Assembly: GCF_037101375.1 (NCBI RefSeq)
Contig: NZ_AP029019.1
Location: 2,790,001-2,854,000, forward strand
Reading direction: 5' to 3'
DNA: 64,000 bases
Origin: Acidovorax sp. DW039
GTDB lineage: Bacteria > Pseudomonadota > Gammaproteobacteria > Burkholderiales > Burkholderiaceae_C
Part shown: piece by piece, positions 61,437-64,000 of the stretch
Layout of the letters: each line of letters begins with the position of its first letter
How positions within the stretch are numbered: the stretch's first letter is position 1
The notes under the pieces: model-generated
Seen by the model: only the letters and a program-made list of their open reading frames with translations
The model's database searches: none
What the model was told of the DNA's origin: nothing
Translations under genes and position numbers: made by a program

Positions 61437-63500
61437 ATGATCACTCTCAAAAACATCGTCCTGCGCCGTGGCACCAAGGTGCTGCTGGACAACGTCTCCA
61501 CCACCATCAACCCCGGCGAAAAGGTGGGCCTGGTGGGGCGCAATGGCGCAGGCAAATCCACCCTGTTTGCCCTGCTGAACGGCAGCCTGCACGAGGACGG
61601 TGGCGACTTCTCCATTCCCCGTCAGTGGCGCATGGCTCAGGTGGCGCAGAACATGCCCGAGACAGATGAGACTGCGACCGCCTTTGTGCTGGCCGGTGAT
61701 ACCCGGCTGGCAGAACTGAAGGCAGAGCTGGCGCGCCTGGAAGGCAGTGATGCAAGTGACGACGATGCCGAGCACGGCATGGCCATCGCCCAGGTCTACA
61801 CAGACTTGGCCGATGCAGGCGACCATGACGCTGTGCCGCGGGCCCAGGCCCTGATCCTGGGGCTGGGCTTTCAATCGCACGAGCTGGACCGGCCAGTCAA
61901 CAGCTTCTCAGGCGGGTGGCGTATGCGGCTGCAGCTCGCGCGCGCGCTGATGTGCCCCTCAGACCTTCTGTTGCTCGACGAACCCACCAACCACTTGGAC
62001 CTGGATGCGCTGGTCTGGCTGGAAGCCTGGCTCAAAAAGTACCCCGGTACGATGATCGTGATCAGCCATGACCGGGAGTTTCTGGATGCAGTGACCAACG
62101 TGACGCTGCAAATCGACAGCGCTCGCCTCACCCGATACGGCGGCAACTACAGCAAGTTTGAAGAGCTGCGCGCCCAGCAAATGGAACTGCAACAGGCGGC
62201 ATACGCCAAGCAGCAGGACAAGATTGCCCACCTGCAAAAGTTCATTGATCGCTTCAAGGCCAAGGCCAGCAAGGCCAAACAGGCCCAAAGCCGCGTCAAG
62301 GCGCTGGAGCGTATGGAGAAAGTAGCGCCGCTGCTGGCTGAAGCGGAGTTCACATTCGAGTTCAAGGAACCCGTCAACCTGCCCAATCCCATGCTCGCCA
62401 TCAGCGAGGCCTCGTTTGGCTACGTCGGCGAGGACGAAGTCAAAACCATCCTGCGCGGAGTGAACCGGTCCGTTCTGGCAGGCCAGCGCATCGGTATTCT
62501 GGGTGCCAACGGCCAGGGTAAGTCCACCCTGGTCAAAACCATTGCCCGCGAAATGGCTCCGTTGGCAGGCAGCGTGACCGAAGGCAAGGGCCTGTCGATA
62601 GGCTACTTTGCGCAGCAGGAGTTGGACGTGCTGCGCCCTGCCGAGAACCCCTTGGAACACATGATCCGCTTGGCACGCGACATGGGTTCCGCCGCCAGGG
62701 AGTCCACCCGCGAGCAGGATCTGCGCAGCTTCCTGGGCAGCTTCAATTTCTCGGGCGATATGGTGAAACAGCCGGTGGGCACCATGAGCGGTGGAGAAAA
62801 GGCACGACTGGTGCTGGCCATGATGGTGTGGCAACGCCCCAACCTGCTGCTGCTGGACGAGCCGACCAACCACCTGGATCTGGCAACCCGTGAAGCCCTG
62901 TCCATGGCCCTCAATGAGTTTGAGGGCACCGTGATGCTGGTCAGCCATGACCGCGCACTGCTGCGCGCCGTGTGTGACGAGTTCTGGCTGGTGGGTCGAG
63001 GCGTGGTCGGCCCCTTTGACGGGGATCTGGACGACTACCAACGCTACCTGCTGGAGGAATCCAAGCGCCTGCGCGAGCAAGCGAAGCTGGACGAAATCGC
63101 AGCCAAGGCCAATGAGAGTGCACTCCCCCCCGTTGAGAAGCCTTTGGCTTCCATGGCTTTGACGCAGCAACCAGCCCTGGTCATCAAGAGCCCGCAGCCT
63201 TCAGCAGCCTCGCGCGACAGCAAGGAACAGCGCAAGCTGGAAGCCCAGGCCCGCCAGCAACTGGCAGAGAAAACGCGCCCTTTGAGAAAAGAGCTGGAGC
63301 AAATCGACAAAAGGTTGGCTCAGTTGTCTGCGGAACGGGCAGAGCTGGAGGACCGCCTGGCTCAACCCATCCCTCCCGCAGAGATCGCAGAGTGCGGCAA
63401 GCGCCTCAAACAGGGGGGCGATGAGATAGCTGCACTGGAGGAACGCTGGCTGGAAATTTCCACTGCGCTCGAAGAAATGGGATCTACAACTGTGAACTAA
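61437..63500 (+). CDS. ABC-F family ATP-binding cassette protein (YheS-like)
   Basis: Soluble translation-associated ATPase of 687 residues with two nucleotide-binding domains and no membrane part. Walker A motifs are GRNGAGKS (about residue 36) and GANGQGKS (about 355). Signatures are SFSGGWRMRLQLARAL and TMSGGEKARLVLAMM, with Walker B plus NHLDL in both halves. A P-site tRNA interaction linker (about 240-300, KQQDKIAHLQKFIDRFKAKASKAKQAQSRVKALE) lies between them, and a C-terminal coiled coil covers 590-680. This domain layout with a C-terminal coiled coil fits YheS. It probably relieves ribosome stalling. Confidence 0.93.
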   Translation: MITLKNIVLRRGTKVLLDNVSTTINPGEKVGLVGRNGAGKSTLFALLNGSLHEDGGDFSIPRQWRMAQVAQNMPETDETATAFVLAGDTRLAELKAELARLEGSDASDDDAEHGMAIAQVYTDLADAGDHDAVPRAQALILGLGFQSHELDRPVNSFSGGWRMRLQLARALMCPSDLLLLDEPTNHLDLDALVWLEAWLKKYPGTMIVISHDREFLDAVTNVTLQIDSARLTRYGGNYSKFEELRAQQMELQQAAYAKQQDKIAHLQKFIDRFKAKASKAKQAQSRVKALERMEKVAPLLAEAEFTFEFKEPVNLPNPMLAISEASFGYVGEDEVKTILRGVNRSVLAGQRIGILGANGQGKSTLVKTIAREMAPLAGSVTEGKGLSIGYFAQQELDVLRPAENPLEHMIRLARDMGSAARESTREQDLRSFLGSFNFSGDMVKQPVGTMSGGEKARLVLAMMVWQRPNLLLLDEPTNHLDLATREALSMALNEFEGTVMLVSHDRALLRAVCDEFWLVGRGVVGPFDGDLDDYQRYLLEESKRLREQAKLDEIAAKANESALPPVEKPLASMALTQQPALVIKSPQPSAASRDSKEQRKLEAQARQQLAEKTRPLRKELEQIDKRLAQLSAERAELEDRLAQPIPPAEIAECGKRLKQGGDEIAALEERWLEISTALEEMGSTTVN

Positions 63501-63580: not shown

Positions 63581-63678
63581 AAACTTTCGGGCAATCTAGA
63601 GGGCTTGCAAATTTTTTCAAAATGGCGTCAACCAAGCGGTGAGGCTGGGCGTTGTGGAGTCATATCAGGAGCAATTCC

Positions 63679-63753
63679 ATGACCCACACCGCAAACACCA
63701 CAGTCTGGCCTAACGATGAGCGTGACCGCAAGCGCGCTCCATACCTCGGCTGA
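63679..63753 (+). CDS. Tandem micro-ORF 1, 24-residue basic peptide
   Basis: MTHTANTTVWPNDERDRKRA followed by PYLG and TGA. A good Shine-Dalgarno AGGAG (63667-63671) lies seven bases before the ATG. The core NTTVWPNDERDRKR is repeated in the second micro-ORF 97 bases downstream, with synonymous differences (CCT/CCA, GAG/GAA, CGC/CGT). There is no signal peptide, cysteine or hydrophobic segment; the second half is highly charged. I do not recognise the family. It could be a small functional protein, a peptide precursor or a regulatory leader. Confidence 0.65.
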   Translation: MTHTANTTVWPNDERDRKRAPYLG

Positions 63754-63849
63754 CCCGGCGATCTAAAAATTTTTTTGCGCAGCGTGCAAAACAAGGTCAA
63801 CCGCAAAGCAGCCCACTGCGTTACAGGTACATCTCAGGAGTTTTTGGTT

Positions 63850-63927
63850 ATGAACACCCAAGCAATGAACACAGTCTGGCCAGATGATGAACGTGACCGC
63901 AAGCGTTCCCCTGCGGCTCGCGGTTGA
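63850..63927 (+). CDS. Tandem micro-ORF 2, 25-residue basic peptide
   Basis: MNTQAMNTVWPDDERDRKRS followed by PAARG and TGA. The Shine-Dalgarno AGGAG (63836-63840) lies nine bases before the ATG. Twelve of thirteen residues of the VWPxDERDRKR-containing core match micro-ORF 1, while the ends differ. The 22 bases upstream of both starts are also related (CGTT...CAT.TCAGGAG), suggesting duplication of leader plus ORF. An internal ATG at codon 6 could give a shorter form. A terminator follows 51 bases later. Confidence 0.65.
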   Translation: MNTQAMNTVWPDDERDRKRSPAARG

Positions 63928-63978: not shown

Positions 63979-64000
63979 AGCCCCGCACTGCGGGGCTTTG
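63979..64000 (+). terminator. Terminator closing the micro-ORF unit
   Basis: Perfect 8-bp stem AGCCCCGC/GCGGGGCT with a 3-base loop, followed by TT at the window edge, so the full T-run cannot be seen. It shows that the two micro-ORFs end a transcript. Confidence 0.75.

Follow-up and report, generated by a model that had tools for sequence, protein, structure and literature searches.

A tandemly duplicated micro-gene with a nearly invariant promoter-like element in Acidovorax and related genera

What are the two open reading frames of 24 and 25 codons that follow each other behind an ABC-F gene of Acidovorax sp. DW039, and are frames of this size genes at all? They are located at the end of the window, i.e. 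the 64,000-nucleotide stretch of DNA that was analysed (G000:C1:2790001-2854000 of the 5.2-Mb genome). A preliminary description of the window had read them as a duplicated gene cassette. Comparative analysis shows that the repeat is a micro-gene with a nearly invariant promoter-like element that has been duplicated in situ up to three times within one bacterial family. In the reading that we favour and consider probable, the micro-gene would belong to an ECF-type regulon and encode a micro-protein that is made under stress and perhaps binds to RNA, ribosomes or RNA polymerase.

The micro-gene array and its coding capacity

Both frames proved to be real, each with an AGGAG box shortly before its ATG (Table 1). 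The preliminary description had placed them between the ABC-F gene and a terminator; the upstream border stands, the downstream border does not. The array comprises three tandem micro-genes, not two, with the third starting 94 bases beyond the end of the window, and the hairpin that had been taken as the border lies between copies 2 and 3. Copy 3 has a GTCAAC-N17-CGTT element of its own and is followed by a strong terminator-like hairpin, stronger than the one after copy 2; no such hairpin is evident directly after copy 1. Past copy 3 the genes phaB, phaA and phaC (names from reading the open frames) are located on the other strand. A degenerate pattern of the core, with up to 3 mismatches allowed, matched 3 times in the whole genome, each time in the array, and the reversed control gave 0 matches, indicating that the array is not a product of chance.

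Table 1. Coordinates of the features of the array, in window positions unless stated otherwise
Feature	Position	Strand	Basis or remark
Micro-gene copy 1, 24 aa MTHTANTTVWPNDERDRKRAPYLG	63679..63753	+	sequence and comparison
Micro-gene copy 2, 25 aa MNTQAMNTVWPDDERDRKRSPAARG	63850..63927	+	sequence and comparison
Micro-gene copy 3 MKHTALLNAWPDDERDRKRAPLTV	L002:9095-9169, genome C1 from 2854094		outside the window
AGGAG ribosome-binding site, copy 1	63667..63671	+	sequence; 7 nt spacing to ATG
AGGAG ribosome-binding site, copy 2	63836..63840	+	sequence; 9 nt spacing to ATG
AT-rich tract (UP-element-like) 5' of the -35 box of copy 1	63605..63618	+	sequence
AT-rich tract 5' of the -35 box of copy 2	63765..63779	+	sequence
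ECF-type promoter (predicted), copy 1, GTCAAC-N17-CGTT	63627..63653	+	sequence comparison
ECF-type promoter (predicted), copy 2, GTCAAC-N17-CGTT	63796..63822	+	sequence comparison
Intrinsic-terminator-like hairpin after copy 2 (L002 8980-8998)	63979..63997	+	between copies 2 and 3
ABC-F ATPase gene upstream of the array	61437..63500	+	neighbour in most loci, outside the unit

Throughout the family the peptides share the core W-P-x-D-[E/D]-R-D-R-[K/R]-R, usually followed by [A/S]-P, with W-K-K and D-A-R as rare exceptions. From the longer core proposed for the two frames, NT-VWP-(N/D)-DERDRKR, the WPxDERDRKR part is thus kept, and the 'NT-V' part is not conserved across the family. The N-terminal part is variable in length, sizes being mostly 18-40 residues, and several genera lack the tail after the core, their proteins terminating at DRKR. 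The peptide is charged, with a computed net charge of only about +0.5 at pH 7, and by eye has neither a signal sequence nor a hydrophobic stretch, unlike the membrane-spanning peptides of type I toxins.

Selection on the peptide rather than on the DNA had been deduced from the two frames alone, and the codon comparisons bear this out. In the 12 core codons copies 1 and 2 show 6.0 synonymous differences in 7.7 sites and 2.0 non-synonymous differences in 28.3 sites. For the family as a whole the core pN/pS is 0.064 (twelve core codons, 79 distinct core DNAs from 115 copies), and pairs within the same array gave a pS of 0.493 and a pN of 0.036 (27 pairs, 13 arrays). Pairwise identity of the core among 112 copies is 98.7% at codon positions 1+2 and 68.5% at position 3; in the 3' flank of these copies it is 29% in the 24 nt past the stop and 27% in the next 36 nt. 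Arginine is encoded by CGC or CGT in 451 of 454 cases, a bias typical of well-expressed genes. As far as substitution patterns tell, the comparison shows that the micro-genes are protein-coding and under strong purifying selection.

Distribution and genomic neighbourhood of the family

The cassette has homologues in related genomes, and their tandem copy number varies from one to three, in agreement with its interpretation as a duplicated unit. In the genus Acidovorax 42 of 47 genomes have a match at E<=5e-4 and 44 of 47 at E<=10; three of the five genomes missing at the stricter threshold are without a match, and the other two have matches at E 0.03 and E 5.7. A scan of named genomes, of which the best 80 of 110 loci were kept, found the family in Acidovorax, Paracidovorax, Diaphorobacter, Comamonas, Simplicispira, Giesbergeria, Alicycliphilus, Extensimonas and other bins. 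With a broader profile 56 of the 299 genomes of the GTDB family, from 25 of 141 genera, match at E<=0.02, and 50 are left at E<=1e-3. At the level of the order 20 of 399 genomes match at E<=0.05, 13 of them outside the family with E 0.0055 or worse over 8-16 positions; none of these 13 loci contains the full core, and we found no credible relative elsewhere in the order among the 399 genomes.

Genes of this length had been expected to escape annotation, and they are indeed located outside the profile libraries. A Pfam scan with three family members gave 0 families at E<=1, and so no DUF1127 match, no NCBIfam model fits, and neither PHROGs nor, by sequence profile, the solved structures contain a relative. 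Plasmid and phage records gave no match at E<=1. Among the literature matches listed (titles and abstract beginnings) the family is not described, and Comamonas testosteroni has a 40-aa relative that carries the label 'hypothetical protein'. The WPxDERDRKR peptides thus seem to form a hitherto undescribed family of micro-proteins within a single bacterial family, which adds a conserved set of genes, mostly for 18-40 residues, to those outside the libraries searched. As far as profile, structure and literature searches go, both the family and its putative dedicated promoter element are new.

Genomic context was compared in 81 loci, i.e. the 80 named loci and the window. The ABC-F gene is present in 79 of them, phaB on the other strand in 75, and both in 73. 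In 71 of the 81 loci phaB is convergent and its start is located no more than 600 nt from the last core; in four (L057, L059, L064, L067) it is 2.5-3.8 kb away. Where phaB was not found (6/81 loci) the followers vary and are partly co-directional open frames, and some of these loci are at contig ends. The flanking genes in Acidovorax are prmB, ABC-F, phaB, phaA and phaC, and among the best 80 of 110 loci the closest ABC-F neighbour is that of Acidovorax temperans (87%, L113). However, 11 of 19 divergent loci with the core show neither ABC-F nor phaB in the 2.5-3 kb fetched, which suggests that phaB is probably a bystander of the micro-genes, and no constant set of flanking genes is found across the family. 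Copy number was scored by script in 75 loci, giving one copy in 66, two in 4 and three in 5; these numbers are minima because the script requires a Shine-Dalgarno match and overlooked six loci.

The promoter-like element and its other occurrences

The strongest feature was absent from the preliminary description, namely the predicted ECF-type promoter of every copy. The leaders of the two frames had been recognised as related, and their likeness is explained by the element GTCAAC-N17-CGTT, which both hold. We collected 136 distinct copies by peptide similarity, or in stretches around such matches or around the ABC-F gene, leaving out those that lie no more than 170 nt from the end of their locus. 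The exact element is located upstream of 129 of these, 4 have exact boxes with N16, and the remaining 3 have a one-mismatch form, one of them with N16. In a set of 115 upstream regions the element occurs in 112, as compared to 0.025 expected from shuffled upstreams, and the six named loci overlooked by the first script also carry it. Joint comparison of promoter and core can thus establish micro-genes that are hidden by length cut-offs.

The distance of 17 nt is maintained, with the spacer itself being only 32.5% identical; the identities of the two boxes, 91% and 88%, are inflated because copies had been chosen for exact boxes. Many of the 109 distinct promoters compared have a T-tract at -18..-11, counted from GTCAAC. 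With an AAC-type -35, a CGT-type -10, fixed spacing and an unconserved spacer the element has an ECF-type layout and resembles a promoter for an ECF sigma factor, with one such element for each copy, the ECF class being what we infer from this layout. In PMC6180224 ECF promoters of S. meliloti are given a -35 ending in AAC/CAC and a -10 of CGTT/CGTC/CGAA. As we read the sequences tabulated there, RpoE2/ECF15-type regulons resemble our case in the -35 ending AAC, the -10 CGTT and comparable spacing, and differ from it in the -35, which is TGTCAAC here and not GGAAC, and in their targets.

Which sigma factor might read the element was addressed by inspecting stretches upstream of sigma genes of the window's genome (eleven Pfam Sigma70_r2 matches and a DUF3619-linked ECF gene). 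None of them contains the exact motif; two weak sites with two mismatches precede the sigma loci L053 and L054, and one match, inside the DUF3619-linked ECF gene, was put down to chance. At L042:1038-2095 this ECF sigma gene is followed by the DUF3619 gene, possibly its anti-sigma partner, making it a candidate regulator without an upstream motif. A tblastn search of 387 loci with nine ECF proteins of this genome matched only their own sigma loci, which served as positive control, so that no ECF gene was detected beside the micro-genes.

Alternatively, GTCAAC-N17-CGTT might be an operator or a variant of a sigma-70 promoter. Such a reading is consistent with the missing motif in front of the ECF genes, with the TACAAT found in motif sites of cytochrome c genes (see below), and with the window's genome, where the plain motif is not in excess (10 sites, 3 of which are these copies, vs 16 for the reversed control). 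Against it, the two boxes are asymmetric, stand at a constant distance although the sequence between them is not conserved, and are preceded by a T-tract, and a sigma-70 scan of the array gave one site, on the opposite strand. We regard an operator or sigma-70 variant as unlikely.

A stricter motif, TGTCAACS-N16-CGTTG, has no site in the window's genome. In 150 family genomes it gave 94 sites in 74 genomes, as compared to 35 sites for the reversed motif (table tally), and in an earlier set of 16 genomes 16 sites vs 4. The genes behind 77 sites (L276-L351) were classified; this set is not random, as already known micro-gene sites or earlier-seen sites among the 94 were mostly left out. The WPxDERDRKR family follows 8 of the 77 sites, a second micro-protein 12, Ala/Lys-rich exported proteins 20 (one of them, L276, doubtful as it is located within a long open frame), cytochrome c genes 3 and SlyB-like lipoproteins 2. 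The other 32 sites are unclassified, which is about the number of chance sites predicted by the reversed control; by eye some of them precede small genes (L328, L334, L338, L302, L305, L343, L350), and many are located inside long frames. A HiPIP-like gene (L338) and a gene for a DUF1328-like small membrane protein (L305), both named by eye, are among the genes behind the motif.

Occurrence of the same element before several kinds of genes in other genomes of the family, i.e. those for the second micro-protein, the Ala/Lys-rich proteins and the SlyB-like lipoproteins, suggests a regulon. Since the motif is not enriched in the window's genome and its strict form has no site there, the putative regulon partners are known from other genomes only. 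The promoter element is defined to the base and linked to other small genes, so that a probably stress-related regulon in a large environmental family becomes directly testable. Cytochrome c genes were not counted as firm members, as TACAAT is present inside the GTCAAC..CGTT spacer (L044, L286, L296, L322), perhaps reflecting overlapping promoters. The Ala/Lys-rich exported small proteins (L279, L282, L284, L303, L314, L320, L337 and others) appear to be co-regulated with the micro-proteins but differ from them in having export signals, as judged by eye. We take them to be acid-shock-like proteins resembling Asr.

The second micro-protein, found in other genera of the family (L358-L385, L387), comprises about 52-62 aa with the pattern ...KGRKHEAFE...DRRSLARA.RFDRKR and likewise ends in DRKR; profile comparison detected no homology between the two families. 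A protein search found it in 52 of 299 genomes at E<=0.01 and in 46 at E<=1e-3. TCAAC-N17-CGTT is present within 300 nt in 29 of 29 scored loci (30 kept), the background being 93 of 4862 300-nt windows in the 80 named first-family loci, own promoters included. This test is not fully independent because the search profile was built from sites found via the promoter. No Pfam model fits the second family, and PHROGs gave one match only, at chance level (E 0.21). In Roseateles and Pelomonas its relatives go under the name of hypothetical proteins, and in several of eight loci an SNF2-like helicase gene, named by eye, adjoins the second family.

At E<=1e-3 the first family is found in 50 and the second in 46 of the 299 genomes, and none has both. 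Fisher's test gave p 1.5e-4 with genomes taken as independent, a value that relatedness makes too small, and with relaxed thresholds a single genome, G063, combines a second-family match with a weak one to the first family (E 0.015). Tentatively, a lineage-specific ECF stress regulon of Comamonadaceae and relatives might have two unrelated families of micro-proteins as output, the 24-aa WPxDERDRKR and the ~52-aa ...KGRKH...DRKR proteins, which would substitute for each other from genus to genus behind one and the same promoter. They would fill one functional slot, with the dose being tuned by in-situ tandem duplication; we consider this model a serious possibility rather than a probable one.

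Possible roles of the peptide

In the favoured reading each repeat would be a one-gene transcription unit made of an AT-rich tract, the -35 box GTCAAC, a 17-nt spacer, the -10 box CGTT, a short 5' UTR, a good Shine-Dalgarno sequence and a gene of ~24 codons, with a terminator after copies 2 and 3 in this array. An ECF sigma factor would read the element, and if the element is an ECF promoter the peptide would be made on a stress. The charged core with its invariant Trp might then bind RNA, the ribosome or RNA polymerase and thereby adjust gene expression in stress, and additional tandem copies would raise the dose of the peptide.

RNA, the ribosome or RNA polymerase are held to be the most likely partner by analogy with small Arg-rich DUF1127 proteins. 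PMC10253847 describes CcaF1 of Rhodobacter sphaeroides as an RNA-binding protein with an influence on stress resistance, encoded behind an RpoHI/RpoHII promoter, whereas PMC11707872 reports no RNA association for Salmonella YjiS. The DUF1127 proteins are, like the WPxDERDRKR peptides, short, conserved and Arg-containing, and CcaF1 shares with them a position behind the promoter of an alternative sigma factor. The WPxDERDRKR peptides differ in lacking a DUF1127 profile match, in size (71 residues for CcaF1), in their core and in their ECF-type promoter; moreover, no co-transcribed CcsR-type RNAs were seen, and CcaF1 is from another class of bacteria. The low net charge is weak for a nonspecific RNA binder and counts against RNA binding. 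That the core binds RNA, the ribosome or RNA polymerase to adjust expression in stress, as CcaF1 does via RNA, is thus a possibility that we rate well below the probable, and as a partner RNA or the ribosome is similarly doubtful on this analogy. A sigma factor or RNA polymerase as partner seems less likely still.

The latter partner would be in line with a small anti-sigma or RNAP-binding peptide, one that feeds back on RNA polymerase or on the sigma factor behind its own expression instead of binding RNA or the ribosome. The tight linkage of promoter and peptide, seen in the 136 copies as well as in the scored second-family loci, and the lack of a genome with both families at E<=1e-3 speak for feedback, but such linkage is equally expected of any regulon member, and no ECF gene was found beside a micro-gene among the 387 loci. 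We consider feedback regulation unlikely.

Small regulatory or dual-function RNAs, with an ORF of little weight, are improbable. Tandem copies are found for many stress sRNAs, and a short transcription unit that has a promoter to itself and in many cases a terminator would suit an sRNA. The conservation pattern points the other way, being concentrated in codon positions 1+2 of the core and lost in the 3' flank. Folding z-scores of the three copies are -0.92, -0.08 and 0.57, and Rfam gave two matches only, both in the region of the ABC-F gene and far below gathering scores. On the basis of Rfam, folds and flank identity an RNA function was rejected as main role.

The preliminary description had also raised the idea of a precursor for modification, which did not hold up: past position 64000 there are the third copy, phaB, phaA and phaC and, by eye, no maturase or exporter. 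A precursor whose Trp-Pro core is modified in RiPP-like fashion or secreted as a signal would agree with the variable N-terminal part, the highly conserved core and the tandem copies, and transporter-like frames are located near two divergent copies (an ABC-2-type permease-like ORF at L170, ABC-transporter genes at L182). These are not conserved, however, and visual inspection of the Acidovorax flanks and the 11 divergent loci revealed no recurrent maturase, protease or exporter; in addition, the peptides lack a signal sequence by eye and those of some genera end with the core, making a precursor very improbable. Least probable of all is a leader peptide (uORF/attenuator) controlling a downstream gene, which would fit a very short ORF with a terminator close behind and a co-directional follower in few loci (L126, glyoxalase-like, 60 nt past the core; L113, long), but conflicts with the oppositely oriented phaB found no further than 600 nt away in 71 of 81 loci (the remaining 10 being arranged differently), with the different neighbours of 11 of 19 divergent loci and with the frequent synonymous codon changes.

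As a minor observation on the stress-induced micro-protein favoured here, three loci (L167, L168, L169) contain unequal pairs, in which a version of 38-40 aa with the core WPWDDRDRKR, whose 40-aa form is related to the protein annotated in Comamonas testosteroni, is followed by a 19-aa version ending at DRKR.
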